DNA of 11,197 bases, from positions 1-11,197 of the forward strand of contig DYHY01000015.1 of assembly GCA_020723935.1 (NCBI GenBank), written 5' to 3'. The stretch is from Candidatus Micrarchaeum sp. Its GTDB lineage: Archaea; SpSt-1190; DYHY01. Every line of letters begins with the position of its first letter. The first letter of the stretch is position 1. Positions 1 to 11,197 of this stretch are shown here, piece after piece. A model generated the notes under the pieces. It saw only the letters and a list, made by a program, of their open reading frames with translations. It did no database searches and was not told where the DNA came from. Position numbers and translations under genes: made by a program.

Positions 1-2014
1 CGTCGAGGAGCTCGCCGCAGAGCGCGGGCGCAAGAGGTGAGAGTACTTGCGCGAGGTTGAGGACCGCGGCATCGGCGGCATCCCTGCTCATTCCCCCCCG
101 GCGCAGATAGGTGGAAACGGCTGAAAAGCCCGAAAACAGCGAAAGAAGGGCATCCCGGGGCATGAGGCTTTCCATTGCGGAATGCGCACGGGCGATGCGG
201 ACGGCCGCATCGGCGCCGAGGAAGTCCTCCGCCTGCCCGGATGATGCTCCGCCCACGGGAAGGGCGGCGATCCTTTCAACCAGCTTCCTGATCTCCTGGA
301 TCCTTTCGGAAACCGCGCGCAGGTCCGCCGTCCCGCATTCCGAATCCTTCCTGGGTCCCGCAAGAAGTATCGAGAGCCTGACCGCTTCCCCGCCGTACGC
401 GGAAAGCAGGGCGGAGAGCGGCTCGTGGGAGGAGAGGAAGGGGAGCTTGATGAAGCCCTTGGGTCCCTGTGCCGGCTCCAGCATCGCCGAGGACAGGCGG
501 CACAGGTCCGAGGGCCAGCGTTCCGGCTTTCCGGAGAAGACGAAGAAGGATGACGGCGACGAAGAACCTTCGGGCCCCTCGGAGAAGACGAGTCCGGCCG
601 CCTGCCTTGCGGAAAGGAGCGCCTCCTTGGGAAGGACGCCGCGGCAGCTCTTGAGGACGGAGTTGAAGTTGCTTTCCTTGCCGAAAAGATAGTCGAACGC
701 GACGGGCGGCGGGGATTTCTCCGCAGGCAGGCCGCAGAGGAGGTGGAACGCCGAAAAAAGGAAGGGATCCGAGGGGGGCCGATCGCCGCTAGGGAGCTGC
801 GCCAGCATCCCGGCCGCGGCGGGGACGAGGGAGATGGAATCCGACCAGCTCTTGGAGGAGAAGAGGAGGACGGGGGAATCCGCGCGCACCGCGCAGAGGA
901 GCCTCGCGCCGCAGAACCCGCACTCGCCCCGCGCCGGTTCGAGGAATTCGCATGCGGCGCCGCTCCTCAGGAATTCGTGGCGCATCAGGGGCGCGCCCTC
1001 CCCGACAGGGAGGCCGTGGAACCTCCCGCACACCTCCGTGAACATTCCGTCCCTCGCAGGGAATTTCACCTGGACTTCCTCAAGCTTCCTCTGCGACAGG
1101 CCGCTTTGCGAGAGGATCTGCGGCGAGGAGGAGAGGACGCGCAGGCCGGACAGGTCCCCGGCGTCCGTTCCCGGCGAGCAGACGGAGATTCCCGTCGGGC
1201 TCCCGGGTTTTCCGGGTATGATCGGCACGAACTCCTCGGTCACCGGGTTCTTCGCCGCGCTAGCGAGGAGGTCTTTCCCCGTGAATTCCATCTCGACGCT
1301 CCCCTCGCCCAGCTGCGCTGAGAAATCCGGGAGCCTTTCCCTGAGGAACACGTACGAAACATTCTTGTTTCCCTTGGAACGCCAGCGGGCGTATGCGGCG
1401 GACGGGTCGACCCAGAGGGCGCACGCCGCGAAGGCGTCCTGGGGCTTCCTGATTTCCGCGAGGAGGATGAGATCCGCGACCGCGAAGTTCAGGAGGAGCC
1501 GCGGCTCGATCCGCTCGGAGAAATCGGTCAGGTCCTTCCCGCACGACGGGCAGGCGACGACAGGGACGTCCAGAGTGGAGGAGAGCTTCTCAGCCGAGAG
1601 CCATGCGCGCGCGTACGGGAAGAACCCCGACGAGAAGAGTGGGTCTGTCGAGCGCAGGATTTTCTTCGTCCCGACAAAGAGGTCCCTCAGCGCCGAGAGC
1701 CACCTCCCCTCCAGGTGCGCCGAGAACTCCGCCTCGTCGCGCAGGCCGTCCGGGAGGGCGGCCTCCTCGAGGGAAAACATCGTCCTGCTCTCTATCGTCT
1801 TGCGCGAGAAAGAGGAGAAGGCGCAGGAGACCGACGACCCGCGGGTGACGAGCCCGACGGCGGCCTCGGGCGAGGAGAAGAACCTGTTCATCGCGTCGCA
1901 GAAAACGTGCGGCCGAATCCCGCCCATCGTCGGGAAGCCGCATGTGACTATCGGGGGTGGAAGGAGGATGGTTCGCCTCTGCGCCTTTCCTTTCTTCCCT
2001 TCCTCTGCCGGCAT
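1..2014 (-). CDS. Degenerate leucyl-tRNA synthetase-like protein (partial, 3' end outside window)
   Basis: One stop-free frame gives 671 residues from an ATG at 2014-2012 to the window edge. The order of segments follows archaeal LeuRS as I remember it: an N-terminal strand with FPT (27-29), a CP1 insert with WVDPSAAY (201-208, compare WVNPNATY), VKFPARDGMF (316-325), a Cys pair, FDYLF (440-444), SSFFVF (488-493), the helix LSALLSAYGGEAVRLSILL (533-551, compare the segment after KMSKS), and LSPLAPALCGELL (658-670, compare LMAPFTPHICEELW in the anticodon-binding domain). Catalytic signatures are lost: HIGH is replaced by GGIRPH with a short deletion, KMSKS by FIKLP (521-525), the editing RPET by RKPQD (189-193), and the WLDKKACAR-type loop is absent. 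Cys pairs C155/C158 and C365/C368 remain and could bind zinc. It is probably unable to aminoacylate, so a regulatory, tRNA-binding or structural role is inferred. Codon use stays regular and the frame is intact over 2 kb, which argues against a decaying pseudogene. The start fits a leaderless promoter at 2036-2053. A full archaeal LeuRS is about 930-970 residues, so a few hundred may lie outside. Confidence 0.82.
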   Translation of the reverse strand, partial: MPAEEGKKGKAQRRTILLPPPIVTCGFPTMGGIRPHVFCDAMNRFFSSPEAAVGLVTRGSSVSCAFSSFSRKTIESRTMFSLEEAALPDGLRDEAEFSAHLEGRWLSALRDLFVGTKKILRSTDPLFSSGFFPYARAWLSAEKLSSTLDVPVVACPSCGKDLTDFSERIEPRLLLNFAVADLILLAEIRKPQDAFAACALWVDPSAAYARWRSKGNKNVSYVFLRERLPDFSAQLGEGSVEMEFTGKDLLASAAKNPVTEEFVPIIPGKPGSPTGISVCSPGTDAGDLSGLRVLSSSPQILSQSGLSQRKLEEVQVKFPARDGMFTEVCGRFHGLPVGEGAPLMRHEFLRSGAACEFLEPARGECGFCGARLLCAVRADSPVLLFSSKSWSDSISLVPAAAGMLAQLPSGDRPPSDPFLFSAFHLLCGLPAEKSPPPVAFDYLFGKESNFNSVLKSCRGVLPKEALLSARQAAGLVFSEGPEGSSSPSSFFVFSGKPERWPSDLCRLSSAMLEPAQGPKGFIKLPFLSSHEPLSALLSAYGGEAVRLSILLAGPRKDSECGTADLRAVSERIQEIRKLVERIAALPVGGASSGQAEDFLGADAAVRIARAHSAMESLMPRDALLSLFSGFSAVSTYLRRGGMSRDAADAAVLNLAQVLSPLAPALCGELLD

Positions 2015-2035
2015 CGCGGCCGTGATGGCGCGCGG

Positions 2036-2053
2036 GGATATATCCTTTTTTCG
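2036..2053 (-). promoter_or_regulatory. TATA/BRE-like promoter of the LeuRS-like gene
   Basis: On the minus strand a GAAAAAAGG purine run is followed by GGATATATCC (2036-2045), itself a 10-bp palindrome. Its centre lies about 26 nt upstream of the ATG at 2014, the spacing expected for an archaeal TATA box serving a leaderless transcript. I see no Shine-Dalgarno sequence before the ATG. Confidence 0.55.
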
Positions 2054-2086
2054 GGTCCGGGTGGGAGGGGACCGACGGGAGGGGCA

Positions 2087-2110
2087 TTTATTTATAAAAT
2101 ATTTATAAAT
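2087..2110. promoter_or_regulatory. A/T-only element between two minus-strand genes
   Basis: A stretch of A and T only, holding two TTTATAAA-type cores, stands out in very GC-rich surroundings between the stop of the coiled-coil gene (2146) and the LeuRS-like gene. It could be a second, upstream promoter for the LeuRS-like gene (giving a leader of roughly 50 nt) or part of the 3' end of the coiled-coil transcript. No plus-strand gene is there to use it. Confidence 0.4.
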
Positions 2111-2145
2111 AAGTGGTATCGCGCTCCCAGGGGGGCGCGCCCGGG

Positions 2146-4593
2146 TCACATGTTGTAGTACGCCTTGTGGCTCCTGAGCATCGACTTGATCTTACTTATC
2201 TCCGCCTGGTGCTTGTCAAGGTGGTCCTCAATGGAGAGGGTGCGTGCGATGCGCGCGTCTATCTCCTTGAGCTTTTCGCGGGTCTGGCGCGATATGTCCT
2301 CGAAATGCTTCTCGGAGACGAGGCCCTCCTCCTTCTGGTTGGAGAGGAGCATGAGGAGTTCGGAGAGCTCCTTCCTCTGGCTCTTGAGCGCCTCCAGGTT
2401 TGACACCTCGGCCATGAGGTCCTGCGATTTCTTCGCGAGGTCCGATGCGTTGGCATCCGGGCTCTGCTCGGACGGCCTCGGCTGCGCGGGATAGGCCCGG
2501 GGCGAGAAGGACATCTTGGATTCGAAGGCGGATTTTATCGCGTCTATCTCGACCGACTTCCTCTCGAGGAGCGCCTGCTTGGAGGAGAGGTCCGAGAGCC
2601 TCGAGTCGATTGCCGCGAGCTTCTGGGAGACCGCGTCCTCGATCTTTCCGAACGCCTCGACCCGGGCGTCGAGGTCCTTCTCCTTGGAGACGAGGAAGCC
2701 TATCTTCACCTCTATCTCCCCGAGTTTCTCGGTGAGATCCTCGTCCACGCCCTTGAGGCTTTCGCGCGCCTGCTCGGATTCCGAGACGGAGCGTTTCACG
2801 GACTCCATCTCGTCCTTGAGGGAGGCTTGGAGGCCGTCGACTGCGGACGTGAGATCGGACGCCTTCTTGAGGCCGCGCTCGACCTGCTCGGAGATCGCCG
2901 CGACCTTGCGCTGGTATTCGGAGACTGCCGCCTCGCGCTTCCTCGTCGTCTCGTCAATGAGCTGCTCCGCCTGCTCCTCGGTCTTCTGGACCTGGCCCCG
3001 CCTCGCGGAGAGGTCCGTAGCTATCTTGGCCATGCCCTCGGTGAGCGAGACGGATGTCTGGCGGAGCGAGGACGCGCGCGCGTCCAGCGACTCGACGTCC
3101 GAGCGGATCCTCATTATGTCCGAAGTGGAGGACTCGATCCTCTGCTTGGACGTTATGACCTCGTTCTCCAGGGCGAGGACCGCGCTCTTGAGCTTGGACG
3201 CGCGCTCCTCGGCGGAGGAGAGCCTGGATGAGGAGGTGTCCTGCATAGCCTGCAGGTCGGAGAACTTCGCGGAAATGGACGACTCTATCTGCTTGAGGGC
3301 GGAAAGCTTGGTCCCCGCCTCGGAGAGGCGCGAGTCCAGGTCCTCGCTCGAGCGCCTGAACGACTCGAGCTTCGCGTTCGCTCCTGTGGTCAGGTCGTCA
3401 AGCCTCGCCTGCGAGGCCACGAGTTCCGAGACGCGCGAGGAGAGGGTCTGCGCCTGGCTTTCCGCCTGCTGGCGCAGGCTCTTGAGCTCCGAGAGTCTGG
3501 ACTCGACGAAGCCCTGGCTCTTCTGCATCTCGGACTCGAGGGTCTCGTGCGCCTGCTTGACGAACGCGATCTTGGAATCTATCTTTGGGATGAGCTCCTC
3601 GGCCGAGGATTGCACCTCCTTGAAGGAGAGGAGCTTCTGTTCGAAGTTCGCCTTGAGGGAATCGAGGCCCGCAATCTTGGCGTGGACGTCCGGGAGGATG
3701 AACTCAAAGGTCGCCTTGAGCTTCTCGGCTTCCTGGCGCCTGCCCTCGATCGCCGCCCTTATCGCGTTGACCTCGCCGCCGAGGAGGTCGGACGCCTTCC
3801 TCGCGTCCGAAGCCTGCGCCTTTATCGACTCGACGACGGCGGTCACTTCCGCCTTCTTGGAATCCGCTATTTCGCGCGAAGTCCTCACCTGCTGCTCGAG
3901 GGCCTCGGTCACCCTGCGGAACTCCTCGAGCCGGTCCTTGGCGTCGGGCAGGGCGGAAGCCATCCTGCGGGCGGCCTCCTCTATGAACGCTATCCTGTCG
4001 TCGGAGGATTTCTTCAGGCCCTCGAGCTCCGAGAGCCTGGCCGAGATCGAGCTAGCGGTGTCGGACACCTCCTTGTGGAGGGCCCCTACCTCCGCGCGTT
4101 TGTCCGCGTAGCTCGTGCGCGCGGCGTCCACTTCCGCGTGCAGGCGGTCCAGGTACGATATCACCTTCTGAAGGTTCGCGGCAAGGCTTTCCGAGAGGAC
4201 GGAGAGGCGGTTGAAATCCTCGCGGCGCTCGTTGAGGTGGCTCTCGATGCCCGTGAAGCCGCGGTCAATCTCCTGCTGGAGGCCCTGGGCCGCCTGGAGG
4301 CGGCTCCTGAGCTGCTCGGACTTCTGCTCGAGGGCCGCCTTGACCCGCAGGGCCTCCTCTATCTGCTCGGAAGTCTCCTGGCGGGCCTTGGAAAGCACGA
4401 TGAACGCGTCCTTCATCCCGGAAGGATCGCCACCTTGCGGCTGCCCCGCCTGCGCGGGATCGTCCCGGGAGAAACGGCGGACCGGACCGGACTCCCCGGA
4501 GGGAGCGGGCGGCGCCTGGCGGCGGACGGGCGGAGCCTTCTCCCCGGAGTCGTCGTCATCCGGATAGGCCGCCACGGCGATTGGAATCGGCAC
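2146..4593 (-). CDS. Large coiled-coil protein, 815 residues, function unknown
   Basis: The product starts at a GTG (4593-4591) and ends in TGA. Residues 1-60 are Pro/Asp/Gly-rich and probably disordered. Residues about 60-690 are an almost unbroken heptad pattern rich in Glu, Lys, Ser, Ala and Leu. A Pro-rich hinge (696-715) precedes a second helical region (718-815) ending in AYYNM. I find no Cys, no Trp, no Walker motif, no signal peptide and no membrane segment, so it is not an SMC or Rad50 ATPase but a cytoplasmic rod. A recurring [RK]-[LVF]-[SE] motif sits at residues 366, 387, 408, 422, 443 and 457, spaced by 21 or 14 residues, and [RK]-I-[AG]-F recurs at 200, 341 and 630. The GTG start is preferred because a TATA box lies about 26 nt upstream; a later start at Met60 would remove only the disordered leader. 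It may be a structural or scaffold protein, but no family is recognised. It is divergent from the small membrane protein at 4691. Confidence 0.85.
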   Translation of the reverse strand: MPIPIAVAAYPDDDDSGEKAPPVRRQAPPAPSGESGPVRRFSRDDPAQAGQPQGGDPSGMKDAFIVLSKARQETSEQIEEALRVKAALEQKSEQLRSRLQAAQGLQQEIDRGFTGIESHLNERREDFNRLSVLSESLAANLQKVISYLDRLHAEVDAARTSYADKRAEVGALHKEVSDTASSISARLSELEGLKKSSDDRIAFIEEAARRMASALPDAKDRLEEFRRVTEALEQQVRTSREIADSKKAEVTAVVESIKAQASDARKASDLLGGEVNAIRAAIEGRRQEAEKLKATFEFILPDVHAKIAGLDSLKANFEQKLLSFKEVQSSAEELIPKIDSKIAFVKQAHETLESEMQKSQGFVESRLSELKSLRQQAESQAQTLSSRVSELVASQARLDDLTTGANAKLESFRRSSEDLDSRLSEAGTKLSALKQIESSISAKFSDLQAMQDTSSSRLSSAEERASKLKSAVLALENEVITSKQRIESSTSDIMRIRSDVESLDARASSLRQTSVSLTEGMAKIATDLSARRGQVQKTEEQAEQLIDETTRKREAAVSEYQRKVAAISEQVERGLKKASDLTSAVDGLQASLKDEMESVKRSVSESEQARESLKGVDEDLTEKLGEIEVKIGFLVSKEKDLDARVEAFGKIEDAVSQKLAAIDSRLSDLSSKQALLERKSVEIDAIKSAFESKMSFSPRAYPAQPRPSEQSPDANASDLAKKSQDLMAEVSNLEALKSQRKELSELLMLLSNQKEEGLVSEKHFEDISRQTREKLKEIDARIARTLSIEDHLDKHQAEISKIKSMLRSHKAYYNM

Positions 4594-4613
4594 GGGCTAG
4601 GGGAGGCGGCCGC

Positions 4614-4625
4614 AGTATAAAAAGC
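4614..4625 (-). promoter_or_regulatory. TATA box of the coiled-coil gene
   Basis: On the minus strand GCTTTTTATAC is centred about 26 nt upstream of the GTG at 4593. Transcription would then begin at or next to the GTG. This spacing is the main reason for choosing the GTG as the start codon. Confidence 0.55.
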
Positions 4626-4650
4626 ATTTGCGGGAGCAGGGGCCGCGAGG

Positions 4651-4667
4651 GAAATCCGTTTTATAGG
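4651..4667 (+). promoter_or_regulatory. TATA/BRE-like promoter of the small membrane protein
   Basis: GAAATCCG followed by TTTTATAG is centred near 4662, about 29 nt upstream of the ATG at 4691. A GGAGG sequence near 4677-4681 could act as a ribosome binding site only if the transcript began further upstream. It lies back-to-back with the coiled-coil promoter in a 97-bp divergent intergenic region. Confidence 0.5.
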
Positions 4668-4690
4668 AGGAGCGGGGAGGAGGGCGGGAA

Positions 4691-5002
4691 ATGGCAGTGG
4701 AAATGGCGACGATCATGCAGGTGGCAACCCTCGGTGCGGCGATCGCATCGGGAGTGATAGCCGTCCTGATCCTGAGGAAGCAGACGAACGAGAACACGGA
4801 GGTCTCCTGGCGCTACATAATAGCGTCGGCGGTGGCTTTCGCCCTCGCCCAGGCTTTCACCCTGGCCAAGGCGATGTCCCTCCCGATACCCGCGGGCGTC
4901 CTAGCCCACGAGCCGGAGGCGGCGTACCTAGTCTTCGCCCTCCTCTTCCTGCTGGGCATCGCGCGCCAGCACCAGGTCGTGCGCAATAACCCGTTAGACT
5001 AG
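4691..5002 (+). CDS. Small integral membrane protein, 103 residues
   Basis: This is the only plus-strand gene supported in the window. The product has three hydrophobic stretches at about residues 8-28, 41-59 and 77-91. The first is followed by R29 K30, the second preceded by R41, and the third followed by R92 and a short polar tail, which suggests a three-helix membrane protein of unknown family. There are no Cys residues and no catalytic motif. An alternative in-frame start at Met5 (4703) would barely change it. It faces the large coiled-coil gene across a 97-bp divergent promoter region, so the two could be co-regulated, and a coiled-coil protein with a membrane anchor partner is conceivable but unproven. 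It converges with the minus-strand operon that ends at 5063. Confidence 0.75.
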   Translation: MAVEMATIMQVATLGAAIASGVIAVLILRKQTNENTEVSWRYIIASAVAFALAQAFTLAKAMSLPIPAGVLAHEPEAAYLVFALLFLLGIARQHQVVRNNPLD

Positions 5003-5062
5003 TGCGGATCCGGAGGGCTGCGGGCCTCCGCGGTGCGGAGCAGTCCGCCCGACTGGACCGAG

Positions 5063-5382
5063 TTAGGCCCGTGCCCCGACCCGCGAGTAGAACTCCCTGT
5101 GGCGCGCCGCGCATTCCTCCAGCTCAGCTAGGGGCAGGGGGGCGTATCCCGCGTTCCTCGCGCAGTAAGCCCCGGCGCGCCTCGCGACCGCGGCGGCCAC
5201 TTCGGCCGGCGGGGACGCGAGGACCTGCAATACCGGGACGGTGGTGTAGACGCTAGCGAAGAATCCCGTGTCCTCGACGAGCCGCCCGCCCGCCCCGACG
5301 CTGGCCCGGCGAGGGGAAAGAGGGCCTTCTCTTCGTCGTTCTTCCCCCGCTTCGTGAGGAATCGCGGAAGGGCGAGTCCCAT
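5063..5382 (-). pseudogene. Small gene of unknown function with a -1 frame break
   Basis: An ATG at 5382, 4 nt after the stop of the proteasome-like gene, opens a frame starting MGLALPRFLTKRGKND. Protein-like sequence then continues in the -1 frame, with ASVGAGGRLVEDTGFFASVY and later YCARNAGYAPLPLAELEE, ending HREFYSRVGARA at TAA (5065-5063). The downstream frame has no start codon of its own before the late VLQVLASP region, and the upstream frame degenerates into Arg/Pro/Ser-rich text after about residue 30. The switch lies near 5291-5315, in a run of G/C repeats (GGGG, GGGC), and one added base would restore a 106-residue protein. Possible causes are a real deletion, a sequencing error in the G-rich run, or programmed frameshifting. 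The family is not recognised. Position suggests the last gene of the MinD-like operon. Confidence 0.55.
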
Positions 5383-5386
5383 GCGC

Positions 5387-6193
5387 CTATGCCTTCCCCA
5401 AAAGCTCCTGCCAGTTGTTGAATCCTAGCTGCGTCCTGAAGAGGAGCGATGGGTCTATTTTGAGCGCCGAAAGCTTCTCATGGGCGGCGGGCGAAACCTG
5501 CTTCTCCGTCGAGGGCATAACCGCCGCGTCCTCTTTGAGGAGCTTGGTCCCCAGAAGGAGGTCGAGCACCGCGAGGTTCCCGAGGAACGTGCACGCGGGC
5601 GCGTCCAGGGTCGTGACGTCGGTGACGCCGATGACCTGGATGCGTGCATAGCCTTCGACGCCGCGGATCTTCAGGGAATTGGCATAGGCGAGGAGCGTGC
5701 TCTCCAGGGCCAGCTCCATCCCCGCAAGCTTCTGGCGGATGCGCCCGGAGAAGGCGTACTGCGCGCCGATCCCTATCGAGAAGAAGTCGGTCCCCTCGAG
5801 GGAGGTCTGGAACCCGTTCGTCACCTGGTATGCGCCGAACTTCTCTATCGTCCTGTCGTATCCGACAATGAGGGCGGGCGTCTGCTCGAGGAGCTTCTCT
5901 GCCTGCCTCGGGTATCCCGCGTTCTTCTGGGCCTCCCTACGCAGCAGATCCGCCGCGCCCTTGGCGAGCTCCGCGAGCGTGAGCTCGTTGAGCTGCTGCG
6001 GCACCGCCGCGATGAGCTTCTTGGAAAGCTCCGGGTTCCCAGTGCATATTACCACACCGTGCCCGAACGGCTTCTGGAAAGCCGCGTATTTCGTCGCGCT
6101 CGCCCGCTTCTCCCAAGACGAGGGGTTGTACTCAAAGCCGTCGCTTGCGGCGATGAGCCCCCCGTCGAACCTGCAAAATATTCCGACGCTCAT
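5387..6193 (-). CDS. Proteasome-fold (Ntn hydrolase superfamily) protein, 268 residues
   Basis: The N-terminus MSVGIFCRFDGGLIAASDGF resembles the opening strands of HslV and proteasome beta subunits (TTxxx...GVVIAGD). If Met1 is removed, as expected before Ser, then Ser1, Asp17, Lys28 and Lys34 fall at or within one position of the Thr1, Asp17, Lys28 and Lys33 positions of HslV. Further fold landmarks are GVVICTGN (46-53), ALIVGYD (107-113) and SIGIGAQYA (139-147), the last matching IGSGGPYA of HslV but with Ile142 where the conserved Ser stands. There is no propeptide, and the C-terminal part (about 180-268) is longer than in typical beta subunits. It could be a Ser-nucleophile peptidase or amidase, or a non-catalytic proteasome-fold subunit; the sequence alone does not decide. 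It is the second gene of the MinD-like operon, with GGAG about 7 nt before the ATG. Confidence 0.75.
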   Translation of the reverse strand: MSVGIFCRFDGGLIAASDGFEYNPSSWEKRASATKYAAFQKPFGHGVVICTGNPELSKKLIAAVPQQLNELTLAELAKGAADLLRREAQKNAGYPRQAEKLLEQTPALIVGYDRTIEKFGAYQVTNGFQTSLEGTDFFSIGIGAQYAFSGRIRQKLAGMELALESTLLAYANSLKIRGVEGYARIQVIGVTDVTTLDAPACTFLGNLAVLDLLLGTKLLKEDAAVMPSTEKQVSPAAHEKLSALKIDPSLLFRTQLGFNNWQELLGKA

Positions 6194-6239
6194 TTCTGTC
6201 TCCTTTCATCTCCTTTGTTTTTCGCTATCGTGACGCGGG
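6194..6239 (-). promoter_or_regulatory. Intergenic leader with ribosome binding site for the proteasome-like gene
   Basis: The 46-nt gap after the MinD-like stop has no TATA box at the usual distance but carries AAAGGAGACAGAA directly before ATG, a good Shine-Dalgarno sequence. The genes before and after the gap therefore look cotranscribed, in contrast to the leaderless first genes of the window. Confidence 0.6.
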
Positions 6240-7316
6240 TCATGCCCCTTTCTCGAGCTGGGCGATCTTCTCCATCATCTCGTCGAGGGTCATCTTCCCG
6301 TCCATCCACGCCTTCATATAGTCGTCCTTTGTCCTGCGCTGCTGCGGCTGGGGCTGCTGCTCCGGGGCTGCTGCGGATGGCGCTTGCTGCTGCCTCTGCG
6401 CTTGGACGGCCGGTTGGATAGTGAATGCCTGGGCAGGCTGGGGCGCCGCTGCCGCCGCGGGCTGCTGGGTCTGCGGGGCGGCCGGGAACATCACGCCCGC
6501 GCGCACGCCCTCCAGCTGCAGGGAGATCTTGGTGGAAGCAGACCTCGCTTCGGGCCGCCGCTTCCCCCCGAGGAGGGAGCCGAATATCGAGGGCTTCTGC
6601 GGATGCGGCAGGCCCAGGATGTCCGCGGCGAGGGCGCGCACGGCGACCGATGAGGGGGAGGCTGGGTTGTAGAGGGTCGCGGGCGTCCTTGCGAAGGTGC
6701 TCTCCCTCACGACAAGGTCCTCCGGGATGGTGACGAGCACGCGCGATTTCGTCGCGGATTCTATCTCCTCGGCACGCAGCTCGTGCTTCTCGCCCCGTCC
6801 CTTGAACCTGTTGAGTATGACGCCCGTGACCGGGACGCCGGCGGACTGGAGCGTCCCGATGAGCTTGAGGGCGCCCGTCACGGCCGGGATTTCGGGCGTC
6901 GTCGCTATGAACGCCTCGCCCGCGGCCCGCGCGACGGAAATCTCCGCCTGCGTCATCGTGCCCGCGCAGTCGAGGAGGATGAAATCGTAGCCGGCGACGA
7001 CCTGGGAGAGGGCGGCCTGGAGGTTGTCGGGGCTCGCGTCCTTCCCGATCGAGAGGGAGGAGGGGACGACGTGCAGGCCCGTGTCGTGGGCGAAGACAGC
7101 AGCCCCCATCTGCGCGCCCTCCGCAAGGACGCTGTAGAGCGTCGCAGCCGGGCGCACGATGTTGAGGAACACGCCGAGGCTCGGCGAGGAGAAGTTGCAG
7201 TCCACAAGGAGGACCCTTTTCTTGAAGTCGGAGACGAGGGACGCGCCGAGGGCCGAGCATAGGAACGTCTTCCCCGTCCCCCCCTTCCCGGAGAGAACCG
7301 CTATTGTCCTTGCCAT
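6240..7316 (-). CDS. MinD/ParA-like P-loop ATPase with Gln/Pro-rich C-terminal tail
   Basis: Residues 1-240 form a MinD/ParA-type ATPase: the deviant Walker A GKGGTGKT (10-17) with signature Lys11 and catalytic Lys16, the switch I region LLVDCNFSSPSLG (36-48, Asp39), Walker B FILLDCAG (112-119, Asp116), and the family's C-terminal pattern RESTFARTPATLYNP (204-218). The second switch I Asp typical of MinD is replaced here by Asn or Ser. Such proteins dimerise on ATP and position other machines on membranes or nucleoids. No amphipathic MinD-type membrane helix is obvious. Instead residues 280-327 are Gln/Pro/Ala-rich, followed by a short charged helical tip, DDYMKAWMDGKMTLDEMMEK (331-350), likely a partner-binding peptide. 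It is the first gene of an operon with the proteasome-like gene 46 nt downstream, and sits beside pilin-like genes, so a role in placing a surface structure is an inference. A leaderless start is supported by the TATA box at 7341-7348. Confidence 0.9.
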   Translation of the reverse strand: MARTIAVLSGKGGTGKTFLCSALGASLVSDFKKRVLLVDCNFSSPSLGVFLNIVRPAATLYSVLAEGAQMGAAVFAHDTGLHVVPSSLSIGKDASPDNLQAALSQVVAGYDFILLDCAGTMTQAEISVARAAGEAFIATTPEIPAVTGALKLIGTLQSAGVPVTGVILNRFKGRGEKHELRAEEIESATKSRVLVTIPEDLVVRESTFARTPATLYNPASPSSVAVRALAADILGLPHPQKPSIFGSLLGGKRRPEARSASTKISLQLEGVRAGVMFPAAPQTQQPAAAAAPQPAQAFTIQPAVQAQRQQQAPSAAAPEQQPQPQQRRTKDDYMKAWMDGKMTLDEMMEKIAQLEKGA

Positions 7317-7340
7317 CTGCGAGCCTTCCTTCGCGCCTTC

Positions 7341-7350
7341 TTTTAAAATT
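7341..7350 (-). promoter_or_regulatory. TATA box of the MinD-like operon
   Basis: On the minus strand AATTTTAAAA is centred about 28 nt upstream of the ATG at 7316, predicting a start of transcription within a few nt of the codon. Confidence 0.55.
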
Positions 7351-7370
7351 GTCCCTCGGGGCAGTTAACC

Positions 7371-7384
7371 GGCCCGGGAGGGCC
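7371..7384 (-). terminator. Short GC hairpin after the first pilin-like gene
   Basis: A perfect 5-bp GGCCC/GGGCC stem with a 4-nt loop lies about 45 nt after the stop at 7429 and ahead of the next promoter. There is no strong T-run on the minus strand, so a terminator role is only suggested by position. Confidence 0.25.
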
Positions 7385-7428
7385 TTCGGTTGCCTTCCGG
7401 CGCCTTCTTTGTCCGCCGCGCCGCTAAA

Positions 7429-7905
7429 TCACTGGCACGTCCCTATCAGCGGGCGCGCCCCGGTGAAGTTGTAGACGTTGGAGGGGAGTGTGGCGTCCGC
7501 ATACCCTATCCGCACGTCGGAGACGAAATACGTCTGGCCGGCGGAGGTGCAGGGGACCTGCGCGACGAGCGTCACGAGGCGCGTCGCGCCCGGCGAGAAG
7601 CTCATCGGGAGGCCGCTGTAGTGGACGTTCGTCGAGCCGAAATAGAGCGAGTTCACGAGGACGGGGAAGTTCTGGTTGTTCCTTATCGTCACGCTGCTCG
7701 TCCCGCCCGTCGAGGAGGCGCTCATGAAGGGCTTGGTGATCCCTATGTCCGCAGATTCCCAGTAGGAGAGGGCCTCGCGCCGGGAGATCCCGCTGGAGAT
7801 CGATGGGAAGCTCGTCACGACGCCGATGACGGCGAGGGCTATTATCAGGACGGCGGCGAGTATCATGAGGTATTCGACCGCGGATTGGGCTTTCTCGGCC
7901 GCCAT
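7429..7905 (-). CDS. Class III signal peptide pilin-like protein, 158 residues
   Basis: The N-terminus MAAEKAQSAVEYLMIL is an archaeal class III signal peptide: a short charged leader, then a QSAVEY variant of the Q-x-S-x-E-Y motif, then a hydrophobic helix (13-30). Known members are cleaved just before the Gln by an EppA/FlaK-type peptidase, leaving a type IV pilin-like subunit. The rest is beta-rich, with the family strand VTIRNNQNFPV, one internal Cys (VPCTSAG), and a C-terminus NFTGARPLIGTCQ whose Cys could pair with the internal one. It shares this plan with the proteins at 8671, 9401, 10133 and 10851 but is the most divergent full-length copy, with Ala for the motif Ser. A TATA box fits leaderless translation from the ATG at 7905. 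Confidence 0.88.
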   Translation of the reverse strand: MAAEKAQSAVEYLMILAAVLIIALAVIGVVTSFPSISSGISRREALSYWESADIGITKPFMSASSTGGTSSVTIRNNQNFPVLVNSLYFGSTNVHYSGLPMSFSPGATRLVTLVAQVPCTSAGQTYFVSDVRIGYADATLPSNVYNFTGARPLIGTCQ

Positions 7906-7927
7906 GCCATTATAGGGCGCAAATCCG

Positions 7928-7942
7928 TATTTAACTTTTAGA
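7928..7942 (-). promoter_or_regulatory. TATA/BRE promoter of the first pilin-like gene
   Basis: On the minus strand TAAAAG followed by GTTAAATAC is centred about 27 nt before the ATG at 7905. It overlaps the stop codon of the upstream gene (7933-7931), so the two genes are tightly packed but the pilin has its own promoter. Confidence 0.55.
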
Positions 7943-8492
7943 GTCCGAAGTTTTCCCCGCCGGGGGGGCGCTGCCCAGGATGGGCCGCCCGTAGAGGGCC
8001 GCGTATTCGGAAGCGAGGGAATCCATGTGCCTGGTCACGGCACGGCCCGCTCGTAAGCGTACGTCAGGCCGAAGCCCGCCGCGTCGGCGAGGAGATCGTA
8101 GCTGGATTCCAGGATCTTGTAGGCGGCCGGGTTCGTGGAGACGTCTGCAACCTCCTTCCCGGCCGAGACTGCTCCGGCAGCCGCTCCCGCGGCGCGCCCC
8201 AGCGGGCGGGAGCCGAGCCTCCCCGCCGCTTCCGTGCCGGCGGCCAGCCAAGCGTTCGCCGCGAAATGGACGAAAGCGGTGTAATCCATGCGGCCGTGCG
8301 CGGGGGCGGGCGCCCTGGCGATGCAGGCCGCGACCGCCGCCCCCTTCGCCGCGGCGGGAAGGGCGAGGCGCAGGAGGGTCTCGTCCCGGGAAAACTCCCT
8401 CTCAAGATCCTCCGGCAGGACCGCCGCATAGTATTCCCCGGGGCAAAGGTGCCTTCGGAAACCCTGCGCAAACGCTCCCTCAGGCGCGCCAT
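7931..8492 (-). pseudogene. Unrecognised gene broken by two frame changes (185 residues if repaired)
   Basis: Protein-like sequence runs through three frames. It starts with ATG at 8492, MARLRERLRRVSEGTFAPG, and leaves this frame at a CCCC-GGGG run (8436-8443). It continues in the -1 frame as EYYAAVLPEDLEREFSRDE through an Ala/Gly-rich region with a glycine-zipper look, then KILESSYDLLADAAGFGL and YAYERAV. There it meets an exact CACGG tandem duplication (8036-8045) that creates a premature TGA at 8035. The next frame carries TRHMDSLASEYAALYGRPIL to a TAA at 7931. One added C plus removal of one 5-bp copy restores 185 residues. An unbroken alternative, from a TTG at 8529 to 8035, keeps the middle segment but gives a poor N-terminus; the ATG is preferred because a TATA box lies about 28 nt before it. 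No family is recognised. It may be an active gene with errors or a recent pseudogene. Confidence 0.55.
8036..8045. repeat. Exact 5-bp tandem duplication (CACGG twice)
   Basis: CACGG occurs twice head-to-tail at 8036-8040 and 8041-8045. Removing one copy joins YAYERAV to TRHMDSLASEYAALYG in one frame and removes the premature TGA. Confidence 0.75.
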
Positions 8493-8517
8493 ATCGTGCG
8501 CGGTGGGGCTCCTTGCC

Positions 8518-8527
8518 GCTTAAAAAC
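8518..8527 (-). promoter_or_regulatory. TATA-like box of the broken unrecognised gene
   Basis: On the minus strand GTTTTTAAGC is centred about 28 nt before the ATG at 8492, the same spacing as elsewhere in the window. It supports that ATG over the upstream TTG, which overlaps this element. Confidence 0.45.
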
Positions 8528-8645
8528 AAATACTATCAGAGAGTGGGATAATTCGTTCTCCCGGGCGGCGCGGGGCCCGCCCCGCAAGGATGGGGCCCTC
8601 TTGCCGGATTTTGCGTCCTCTACCTTACTGGCAGGCTCTGCAAAG

Positions 8646-8661
8646 CCCTCTCTTCGGAGGG
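8646..8661 (-). terminator. Hairpin after pilin-like gene copy A
   Basis: A CCCTC/GAGGG stem with a 6-nt loop lies 10 nt after the stop codon at 8671. Next to it GGCTCTGCAAAGCC is an imperfect palindrome, with the base that differs from copy B spoiling the symmetry. A terminator or mRNA 3' end structure is inferred from position. Confidence 0.35.
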
Positions 8662-8670
8662 TCCCGTCTA

Positions 8671-9153
8671 TTACTGGCAAGTTCCTACGAGCGGCTTCGC
8701 TCCGGTGAACTGGTAGGTGTTCACGGTGTTCGAGGTGTCGTAGTAGGTTATCTTCACCGTCGGCGAATAGGTCGAAGATCCCGCGGTCTGGCCGTTGCAA
8801 GGGTTGGTCGGTCCGTTCGTTATTGTGACGGTCGCAGTCTGCCCGGGCGAGAGCGTGAAAGACGAGGAGCCGTTGTAGGCAAGGGCGGTGTTGAAGGTGA
8901 CATTCGTCACCGTGACGCCGAAGTTCTGGTTGTTCCGGAGGACGATGCTCGACGTCTGGGCGACGCTGAGGTAGGGGCGCTCGACTCCGATGTCCCCGGA
9001 CTGCCAGTACGCAAGGGAGTCCTTCGTCGAGACCCCTTTCGTCAGGGTCGGGAATCCTCCGAGGACTCCTACGACCGCGAGGGCGATGATCACGACTACC
9101 GCCAGAATCACAAGGTATTCCGTCGACGATTGGGCTCGTTTCTGCGCTGCCAT
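8671..9153 (-). CDS. Class III signal peptide pilin-like protein, copy A, 160 residues
   Basis: The leader MAAQKRA is followed by QSSTEY, an exact match to Q-x-S-x-E-Y, and a hydrophobic helix (about 14-32). Cleavage is expected between Ala7 and Gln8. The mature part is beta-rich with IVLRNNQNFGV, sequons NVT and NGS that could be N-glycosylated, FTLSPGQ, one Cys in NPCNGQ, and the C-terminus QFTGAKPLVGTCQ. The protein is identical to the copy at 9401-9883. There is no Trp apart from the one in YWQSGD just after the helix, a position kept in the whole family. A TATA box sits about 28 nt before the ATG. Being present twice suggests a major subunit or gene-dosage effect, which is inference. The expected prepilin peptidase and assembly genes are not in the window. 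Confidence 0.92.
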   Translation of the reverse strand: MAAQKRAQSSTEYLVILAVVVIIALAVVGVLGGFPTLTKGVSTKDSLAYWQSGDIGVERPYLSVAQTSSIVLRNNQNFGVTVTNVTFNTALAYNGSSSFTLSPGQTATVTITNGPTNPCNGQTAGSSTYSPTVKITYYDTSNTVNTYQFTGAKPLVGTCQ

Positions 9154-9176
9154 GGTGGGACGTAAGGGCTGCGGGC

Positions 9177-9195
9177 GGTATTTATTCTTTTCACG
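9177..9195 (-). promoter_or_regulatory. TATA/BRE promoter of pilin-like copy A
   Basis: On the minus strand GTGAAAA followed by GAATAAATACC is centred about 28 nt before the ATG at 9153. It lies entirely outside the 546-bp repeat, so this promoter is specific to copy A. Confidence 0.6.
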
Positions 9196-9208
9196 GGCGG
9201 GAAAGCCG

Positions 9209-9220
9209 TTCTGCGCAGAA
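9209..9220. promoter_or_regulatory. 12-bp perfect palindrome upstream of the copy A promoter
   Basis: TTCTGCGCAGAA is self-complementary and centred about 33 bp upstream of the TATA core of copy A, a position suitable for a dimeric regulator. No regulator family is recognised. Confidence 0.35.
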
Positions 9221-9270
9221 ACGCACCGGAAGGAAAAGGGGGGGGGTGAGGCGCCGGGCCAAGGGAAATG

Positions 9271-9290
9271 AAGGCCTGGAAAGCCTTTTT
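9271..9290 (+). terminator. Hairpin with T-run on the plus strand in the spacer between pilin copies
   Basis: A stem AAGGC/GCCTT with loop CTGGAAA runs into five Ts, two of which are in the stem. It reads as a terminator only on the plus strand, where no gene is evident, so it may be accidental. The rest of the 184-bp spacer holds the copy A promoter, a run of nine Gs (9238-9246) and no open frame of note. Confidence 0.25.
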
Positions 9291-9363
9291 CCGGAATCAG
9301 CTTACCGGCGGGCGCCTACAAGGGGCCGAGACCCGCGTCGAGGTCCGGTCGGGTTTACTGGCA

Positions 9364-9391
9364 GGCTCTGCAGAGCCCTCTCTTCGGAGGG
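9364..9391 (-). terminator. Paired hairpins after pilin-like gene copy B
   Basis: The CCCTC/GAGGG hairpin (9376-9391) is followed on the minus strand by GGCTCTGCAGAGCC (9364-9377), a perfect 14-bp palindrome in this copy. The two overlap by two bases, so they may be alternatives. They start 10 nt after the stop at 9401, suggesting a 3' end or terminator structure. Confidence 0.35.
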
Positions 9392-9400
9392 TCCCGTCTA

Positions 9401-9883
9401 TTACTGGCAAGTTCCTACGAGCGGCTTCGCTCCGGTGAACTGGTAGGTGTTCACGGTGTTCGAGGTGTCGTAGTAGGTTATCTTCACCGTCGGCGAATAG
9501 GTCGAAGATCCCGCGGTCTGGCCGTTGCAAGGGTTGGTCGGTCCGTTCGTTATTGTGACGGTCGCAGTCTGCCCGGGCGAGAGCGTGAAAGACGAGGAGC
9601 CGTTGTAGGCAAGGGCGGTGTTGAAGGTGACATTCGTCACCGTGACGCCGAAGTTCTGGTTGTTCCGGAGGACGATGCTCGACGTCTGGGCGACGCTGAG
9701 GTAGGGGCGCTCGACTCCGATGTCCCCGGACTGCCAGTACGCAAGGGAGTCCTTCGTCGAGACCCCTTTCGTCAGGGTCGGGAATCCTCCGAGGACTCCT
9801 ACGACCGCGAGGGCGATGATCACGACTACCGCCAGAATCACAAGGTATTCCGTCGACGATTGGGCTCGTTTCTGCGCTGCCAT
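9401..9883 (-). CDS. Class III signal peptide pilin-like protein, copy B, 160 residues
   Basis: The protein is residue-for-residue identical to that of 8671-9153: leader MAAQKRA, QSSTEY motif, hydrophobic helix, RNNQNF strand, internal Cys and C-terminal PLVGTCQ. Even silent positions are unchanged, so the duplication is recent or the copies are kept alike by gene conversion. Only the promoter differs: its TATA core is about 37 nt before the ATG rather than 28, giving a short leader of perhaps 10 nt, and it is flanked by TACAACC half-sites absent from copy A. The likely effect is different timing or level of the same subunit, which is inference. Confidence 0.92.
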   Translation of the reverse strand: MAAQKRAQSSTEYLVILAVVVIIALAVVGVLGGFPTLTKGVSTKDSLAYWQSGDIGVERPYLSVAQTSSIVLRNNQNFGVTVTNVTFNTALAYNGSSSFTLSPGQTATVTITNGPTNPCNGQTAGSSTYSPTVKITYYDTSNTVNTYQFTGAKPLVGTCQ

Positions 9884-9902
9884 GGTGGGACGTAAGGGCT
9901 AT

Positions 9903-9909
9903 TACAACC
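9903..9909. promoter_or_regulatory. TACAACC half-site between TATA box and start of pilin copy B
   Basis: This 7-mer repeats the half-site at 9964-9970 and lies close to the predicted transcription start. A protein bound here could block initiation. The assignment rests only on repetition of the motif. Confidence 0.3.
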
Positions 9910-9915
9910 GGAATT

Positions 9916-9931
9916 GTTATTTATCCTTTTG
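9916..9931 (-). promoter_or_regulatory. TATA/BRE promoter of pilin-like copy B
   Basis: On the minus strand CCAAAA followed by GGATAAATAAC is centred about 37 nt before the ATG at 9883. It lies outside the repeat, like the copy A promoter, but further from its start codon. Confidence 0.55.
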
Positions 9932-9950
9932 GTCCGAAAAGGGGATTGGT

Positions 9951-9970
9951 GTTGTAAAGGTGGTACAACC
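9951..9970. promoter_or_regulatory. Inverted repeat upstream of the copy B promoter
   Basis: GTTGTA (9951-9956) and TACAAC (9964-9969) form a perfect inverted repeat with a 7-bp spacer, about 40 bp upstream of the TATA core of copy B. With the half-site at 9903-9909 it brackets the core promoter. A dimeric activator or repressor site is inferred. Confidence 0.4.
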
Positions 9971-10060
9971 AGAAAAGGACGAAAAAGAAGTAAAATCGGA
10001 CCGGCCAGCCCCCTTTGGCAAGTCCCGGACGGGCGGGAAGGCCGCGGCCCTTCGCCGGCG

Positions 10061-10092
10061 GGCTCCGCAAGCCCCCTCTCTGCGGCGGAGCC
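10061..10092 (-). terminator. Hairpin after the third pilin-like gene
   Basis: GGCTCCGC (10061-10068) pairs perfectly with GCGGAGCC (10085-10092); CCGCA/TGCGG offers an alternative inner pairing. It lies about 40 nt after the stop at 10133. Its order of short motifs (GGCTC-x-GCAA, then CCCTCTCT, then CGG) resembles the hairpin region after pilin copies A and B, so the 3' structure looks inherited with the gene family. Confidence 0.35.
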
Positions 10093-10132
10093 TAAAGCAA
10101 GCGACGTCCGCCGCAAGCGGGAGGGCTTCTGC

Positions 10133-10617
10133 CTATTGACAGGTTCCGACCAAGGGCATCGAGCCGATGAACTGGTGGCTGTTGATGGGTTCGGAGCTGT
10201 CGCGGTAGTCAACCCAGGCGGCCGCCGAATAGGTGATGCTCCTGGGAACCGCCCCGCTGCAGGGGTTCGACGGGCCGTCCGTCACGTCGATTGTCACAGC
10301 CTGGCCGGGCGATAAGGTGAAGGAAGCCGTGCCGTTGTACCCCAGGTTCCCGTTGAAAGTGAGGTTGCTCAGGATCACTTCGAAAGGCAGGTTGTTCCTC
10401 ACGATCACGCGCGAGCCGGAAAGGGAGCTGAAGTAGGGCGCCTCTCGAGGCCGACGTCGGCCCCCTGCCAGTATGCAAGGGACTCCTTCTCGGAGACCCC
10501 CTGCGCGAGCGTCGGGAAGCCGCTGAGCACGCCCACGAGCGAGAGGGCGACGATCACGACGACGGCCAGGACGACCAGGTATTCGACTGAGCCTTGTGCA
10601 GGCCTCTGCTTTGCCAT
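10133..10617 (-). pseudogene. Class III signal peptide pilin-like gene with a -1 frame break
   Basis: From ATG at 10617 the first frame encodes MAKQRPAQGSVEYLVVL, an exact class III signal peptide with QGSVEY, then FPTLAQGVSEKESLAYWQGADVGLER. Near 10440 the homologous sequence moves to the -1 frame and continues PYFSSLSGSRVIVRNNLPF, NPCSGAV and finally QFIGSMPLVGTCQ to TAG. The 99 residues after the break align without gaps to those of the 160-residue copies A and B, so the family identity of both halves is certain. Taking out two bases from the AGGCGCCC region would give exactly 160 residues; adding one G would give 161. As it stands, ribosomes would make a roughly 70-residue product with the signal helix only. 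It could be a sequencing error, a true pseudogene, or a silent cassette. Confidence 0.8.
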
Positions 10618-10637
10618 CCCGCCTGAGGATGAAGATA

Positions 10638-10650
10638 TTATTTAACAATT
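10638..10650 (-). promoter_or_regulatory. TATA box of the third pilin-like gene
   Basis: On the minus strand AATTGTTAAATAA is centred about 25 nt before the ATG at 10617. The intact promoter of the broken gene favours a recent break or a sequence error over an old pseudogene. Confidence 0.5.
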
Positions 10651-10735
10651 TACCCTGAAAAGGTTAACAGTGATTGCGTGTTTATAATCCGGTAAGGGGG
10701 CCCGGGGCCGCCGATTTTGGGGAAAAACTGAGGGC

Positions 10736-10759
10736 TGCGCGGCCCGCGAGGGCCGCGCA
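10736..10759. other. Strong 10-bp perfect hairpin with GCGA tetraloop
   Basis: TGCGCGGCCC pairs perfectly with GGGCCGCGCA around a 4-nt loop, GCGA on the plus strand (a GNRA loop) and TCGC on the minus strand. It lies in the 200-bp gap between the stop of the fourth pilin-like gene and the promoter of the third. On the minus strand GTTTTTCC follows 8 nt later, so it may be a terminator; on the plus strand a TTTATAAT box at 10681-10688 could drive a small RNA containing it. Confidence 0.45.
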
Positions 10760-10810
10760 TTTCTCTAGCCTGCTTGCGACCTAACAGCTGCCGATCAGGG
10801 GCCCTCCGCC

Positions 10811-10828
10811 GAGGACCTGTCAGTCCTC
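10811..10828 (-). terminator. Hairpin just after the fourth pilin-like gene
   Basis: GAGGAC/GTCCTC is a perfect 6-bp inverted repeat with a 6-nt loop, 22 nt after the stop at 10851. There is no T-run on the minus strand. It may be part of a 3' end structure together with the stronger hairpin at 10736-10759. Confidence 0.3.
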
Positions 10829-10850
10829 TTGAGAAGGTCATTGGGAGGTT

Positions 10851-11197
10851 CTAGCAGGAACCGACCAACGGCTTGATCCCGGTGAAGTTGTAGACAGTGT
10901 TGTACGCCGGGTCCTTGTAGCCGTACCCTAGCTCGGAGACGGGGACTGTGAAGGAGCCCGTGCCCGCCGCCGCGCACTGCGCGCCGGAGACGGTCGAGAG
11001 GATCCTGAAGGTCGTCGTGCTCTCGCCCGGCGAGAGGGCGAGGCCCGTTCCCGGTATGTCGTCGCCGGTCCCGGTGCTGGAAGTCAGGGAGATCGCGAAG
11101 TTCTTGTTGTTCCTGATTATCCCGAACGTCCCGGTGTCGTTCGCGAAGTAGCGCACGATCGCGATGTCGGCTGCCTGCCAGTACATTGCGGAATCCT
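10851..11197 (-). CDS. Pilin-like protein, fourth family member (5' end outside window)
   Basis: The frame is open to the window edge and begins DSAMYWQAADIAIVRYF, matching the DSLAYWQSGDIGVERPY segment just after the signal helix of copies A and B. The internal Met is therefore not the start, and the class III signal peptide should lie just outside. Family landmarks follow: IIRNNKNFAI, ALSPGES, one internal Cys in GAQCAAAG, and the C-terminus YNFTGIKPLVGSC, here ending at the Cys without the final Gln. The mid region differs most from the other copies, so it may be a different subunit type. The following 198 bases before the third gene's promoter hold two hairpins and no gene. Confidence 0.85.
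   Translation of the reverse strand, partial: DSAMYWQAADIAIVRYFANDTGTFGIIRNNKNFAISLTSSTGTGDDIPGTGLALSPGESTTTFRILSTVSGAQCAAAGTGSFTVPVSELGYGYKDPAYNTVYNFTGIKPLVGSC

Follow-up and report, generated by a model that had tools for sequence, protein, structure and literature searches.

Pilin genes of the pilE/pilS system in Neisseria are made mosaic by intragenomic gene conversion. Pilin gene conversion at pilE/pilS is treated in PMC4023411, and the duplicated mtrA genes of methanogens are archaeal paralogs shaped by gene conversion (PMC4632066). The genes considered here resemble the converted mtrA duplicates in this respect, although mtrA encodes an enzyme subunit and the present genes encode a surface protein. 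Identical pilin pairs are already on record, as are families of several pilins that have the helix in common (PMC7217056, PMC4371748). In Sulfolobus islandicus, the type IV pilin genes pilA1 and pilA2 are found as two identical copies in 7 of 12 strains (PMC7217056). Our locus is similar in that two near-identical type IV pilin genes lie close together in one archaeal genome, but the S. islandicus loci M164_2742 and M164_2746 come with tested virus and adhesion phenotypes (PMC7217056), whereas the array described here has six genes and belongs to an uncultured lineage. Haloferax volcanii also has six such pilins, PilA1-PilA6, which share an almost completely conserved hydrophobic domain and whose genes are regulated separately from those for assembly (PMC4371748). 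Here, in contrast, the array adjoins assembly genes and two of the pilins are identical over the whole gene. In archaea, pilins serve in contact and as receptors for viruses, and the locus extends a known pilin-family pattern to another lineage.

A six-pilin array and its duplicated product

The window, which is the whole stretch of 11,197 bases that was analysed, covers bases 1-11197 of a contig that is 27.7 kb long; the assembly totals 1.14 Mb in 47 contigs and is about 91% complete. Six pilin genes follow one another on the minus strand, with pilins 2 and 3 forming the repeat pair and the sixth lying past the window end:

7429-7905, minus strand: pilin 1, 46% identical to pilin 2 by sequence comparison
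8671-9153, minus strand: pilin 2 coding sequence, 160 residues, with a class III-like signal (QSSTEYL); from structure model and motif
9401-9883, minus strand: pilin 3 coding sequence, identical to pilin 2; from sequence identity
10133-10617, minus strand: pilin 4, with the frame broken near 10441-10446 (GAGAG) and the rest conserved
10851-11197, minus strand: 3' part of pilin 5, the 5' part of which lies inside a 100-N gap starting at contig position 11198
contig 11511-11993, minus strand: pilin 6, beyond the window

The sequence of pilin 4 is conserved on either side of the frame change, and the gene is a probable recent pseudogene or else carries a sequence error. Further along the contig, two T2SSF platform genes and a T2SSE ATPase adjoin the array, with one PF00437 match and two PF00482 matches over cut-off, and by its gene content this is a type IV-like pilus locus. 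A search for the prepilin peptidase gave one weak PF06847 match (14.1 bits against a cut-off of 29.9) in an assembly that is about 91% complete. Among named relatives, those closest to the ATPase come from DPANN archaea, for the most part labelled Micrarchaeota, Aenigmatarchaeota and Diapherotrites, and the host is an uncultured, DPANN-like archaeon.

The surroundings of the array hold a MinD/ParA-like ATPase gene immediately downstream (6240-7316), a gene at 2146-4593 for an 815-residue coiled-coil protein without clear family, and a 12-bp minisatellite (GGGGGCTTCCCA, 8.6 copies) at contig 12052-12154, between pilin 6 and the first T2SSF gene.

The 160-residue protein encoded by both pilin 2 and pilin 3 starts with a short charged leader, followed by QSSTEYL and a long hydrophobic helix. 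The Pfam Class_IIIsignal model, only 27 positions long, matches at the expected place with 15.4 bits (E 0.018) against a curated cut-off of 23.7, which is a detection threshold and not a biological trait. Residues Q8 and E12 of the Q-x3-E motif are invariant across 24 aligned relatives. In the AlphaFold2 model (mean pLDDT 80.8, pTM 0.63) an N-terminal helix (residues 5-32) is joined to a beta-rich head, and the top matches among solved structures are the archaeal pili 8fk7 (E 3.5e-4) and 8q30 (E 1.2e-3), with Pyrobaculum and Sulfolobus pili as the best. The TM-scores of these matches are low (0.35-0.41), which we put down to uncertain placement of the helix relative to the head in the model. 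A sequence search against solved structures yielded nothing useful for the pilin, and an NCBIfam search returned no pilin family for the protein. The invariant Q8 and E12, the predicted fold and the archaeal pili as top matches bear out the preliminary description, which had called the product a pilin, and its assignment as a type IV-like (class III) archaeal pilin is supported. These pilins are predicted to assemble into a filament.

The repeat pair and its two promoters

The repeat copies, the spacer between them and their TATA-like boxes are arranged as follows:

8625-9170, minus strand: repeat copy A, the pilin 2 gene with its margins, matching 9355-9900 with one mismatch
9355-9900, minus strand: repeat copy B, the pilin 3 gene with the same margins, matching 8625-9170
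9171-9354, no strand assigned: 184-bp unique spacer with the pilin 2 promoter, unrelated to the flanks outside the pair
8643, no strand assigned: the lone difference between the copies, past the stop codon, A here and G at 9373
9179-9185, minus strand: TATA-like ATAAATA of pilin 2, starting at -32
9918-9924, minus strand: TATA-like ATAAATA of pilin 3, starting at -41 (outlier)

Self-comparison of the window gives a 546-bp match at an offset of 730, which is far beyond chance, and the two coding sequences are identical letter for letter. Each copy spans 17 bp 5' of the ATG, the whole gene and 46 bp past the stop codon, and the sole mismatch sits 28 bp past the stop. Identity ends sharply at 8624/9354 and at 9171/9901. 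Beyond these edges there is no significant similarity between the upstream flanks, for which 6 of 200 shuffles reach the alignment score, or between the downstream flanks, for which 22 of 200 do. Hence, three claims of the preliminary description hold: the copies differ at one base after the stop, their flanks are unrelated, and the repeat edge lies 17 bp 5' of the ATG with the TATA-like boxes outside the repeat. The 1.14-Mb assembly has no third near-identical copy, the next-best matches being the diverged neighbouring pilins, and a search of the genome_contigs collection found no close relatives of the pilin.

In eight other TATA-bearing genes checked in the genome, the distance from the start of the TATA-like box to the ATG is 28-33; the distance of 32 in pilin 2 is thus usual, and 41 is seen only in pilin 3 (the repeat and TATA-spacing checks took in a few contigs of the genome). 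Given that in archaea the centre of the TATA box lies about 27 nt ahead of the transcription start (PMC5316973), the pilin 2 transcript is probably leaderless or nearly so, and the pilin 3 transcript is predicted to carry a leader of approximately 10 nt with no Shine-Dalgarno motif. It had been proposed that one protein is placed behind separate promoters at different TATA-to-start distances, and the values of 32 and 41 agree with this. The odd spacing, 9 bp more than in pilin 2, makes pilin 3 the more likely recipient copy. We infer both the direction of copying, with pilin 3 as recipient, and the type of start, with pilin 2 leaderless.

Mosaic neighbours and the origin of the pair

Exchange between pilin genes extends beyond the repeat pair, and three further features of the window bear on it:

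10780-10887, minus strand: 108-bp block identical to the 3' end of pilin 6 and its post-stop region at contig 11440-11547
11143-11197, minus strand: 55-bp block identical to contig 11809-11863 in pilin 6, abutting the gap
10781-10801, minus strand: pilin C-terminus relic (PLIGSC-stop) downstream of pilin 5, recognised by motif

Pilins 5 and 6 are identical over the 108 bp at the 3' end and agree exactly over 55 bp to either side of the N gap. Should pilin 5 match pilin 6 inside the gap as well, the shared 5' block would be about 248 bp long and include the promoter. The middle between the identical blocks has a dS of about 0.4-0.7, and identical runs as long as those of this pair arose in 43 of 20,000 shuffles of the mismatch positions, a test that ignores selection. 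The shared 3' block stops one base beyond the stop codon of the PLIGSC relic. The same relic follows pilin 6 at contig 11441-11461, and in 4 Mb of random sequence its motif turned up a single time. A second pilus locus in the same genome (contig C20; L124 12485-13651) has three pilins, of which c1 and c2 are identical over the first 113 bp from the ATG and then diverge to a dS of about 1, with upstream regions that differ. The corresponding locus of a sister genus also has three pilins, and dS between a1 and a2 is 0.19 at the 5' end versus 1.5 or saturation further on, whereas the two-pilin loci of three more distant genomes have no such long identical runs. Blocks without synonymous change beside diverged blocks, the pattern of intragenomic gene conversion, are present in both pilins 5/6 and c1/c2, and homogenised ends and diverged heads thus recur in this pilin family.

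The best reading, to which we assign a probability of roughly 60%, is a recent gene conversion or local duplication inside the pilin array, together with its proposed effects. Recombination within the array would recently have copied a pilin gene in full, along with 17 bp of leader and 46 bp of post-stop sequence, after which pilins 2 and 3 would encode the same protein while each retained its own promoter. The event would likely raise the dose of one major subunit and homogenise the helical core, whereas in other pairs the exposed heads diverge. Taken as a whole, the observations are best explained by recombination among array members. For pilins 2 and 3 alone, a dispersed duplication would fit about as well as conversion, because their flanks carry no residual paralog signal; flank homology, tried as a means of telling conversion from duplication, gave no signal either way. 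The proposal in the preliminary description, recent duplication or gene conversion, is therefore supported as it stood, and conversion gains further support from the mosaic neighbours pilins 5/6 and c1/c2. An identical pair with different promoters, alongside a pair with the same ends and promoter and different middles, would allow pilin-family recombination to be measured in uncultured archaea.

The closest competitor, which we consider possible if clearly less probable, is a simple recent local duplication, in which illegitimate recombination inserted a second copy of one pilin gene segment and conversion between older paralogs played no part. It would account for the near-zero divergence and for the unrelated flanks on both sides, and a 9-bp sequence, TTACTGGCA, lies at the outer 3' edge and at the stop codon of both copies (8625, 8671, 9355 and 9401), where it is a possible microhomology site. 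However, a plain tandem copy of a 730-bp unit would repeat the spacer, and we rejected that form of the event because the spacer is single; moreover, the mosaics of pilins 5/6 and c1/c2 show that partial exchange occurs in these arrays. Separately, TTACTGGCA was considered as a second pilin relic and set aside, given that just three codons match.

Expression, variation and assembly

Among the 55 related loci that extend at least 6 kb beyond the ATPase match, one pilin was found nearby in 43, two in 4 and none was detected in 8, counts that depend on match thresholds and on short-read assemblies that may collapse repeats. A near-identical repeat of at least 150 bp overlapping a detected pilin was absent from all 100 related loci, and the relatives examined have no orthologous pilin duplicate. 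The further claim that the pair was selected for expression diversity is hence unsupported, since no relative carries an orthologous duplicate that would show retention. Selection of the second copy as a means of putting one pilin under another expression programme seems unlikely, even though the promoters differ, the TATA spacing differs by 9 bp, and H. volcanii reportedly, on preliminary data, uses different pilin subsets in planktonic and sessile cells (PMC4371748). The 9-bp difference is explained equally well by where the copied tract ended, of which it may be a by-product, and the near absence of divergence may reflect no more than a recent event.

Still less probable, and in our view quite doubtful, is that pilin variation is actively generated in this array: conserved ends would serve as recombination sites, the broken pilin 4 and the C-terminal relics would be donors or debris, and repeated conversion would reshuffle heads and promoters. 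If so, the reshuffling might act, for example, against viruses or alter contacts with other cells. The array has one broken pilin and short C-terminal relics. Antigenic variation of the pilE/pilS type works through silent, promoterless cassettes that feed one expressed gene and gives variants in a population, whereas the intact pilins here carry their own TATA-like boxes.

A 100-N scaffold gap interrupts pilin 5 at contig 11198-11297, immediately outside the window. It is flanked on each side by exactly 55 bases that pilin 6 shares without a difference, which suggests that the assembly derives from a k=55 short-read graph. The gap falls exactly where pilins 5 and 6 become identical, and copy number is poorly determined in such a graph, but an artefact showing a single gene twice, which the preliminary description had named as the outcome that would overturn the duplication, is very improbable from the topology of the repeat: the 184-bp spacer runs from the end of one copy into the start of a second and so requires at least one repeat-spacer-repeat molecule, all flanks are unique, and the lone mismatch is no more than 18 bp away from flanks that differ. 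With the repeat at both ends of the spacer and unique flanks anchoring the mismatch, two copies are a sound minimum rather than a count.
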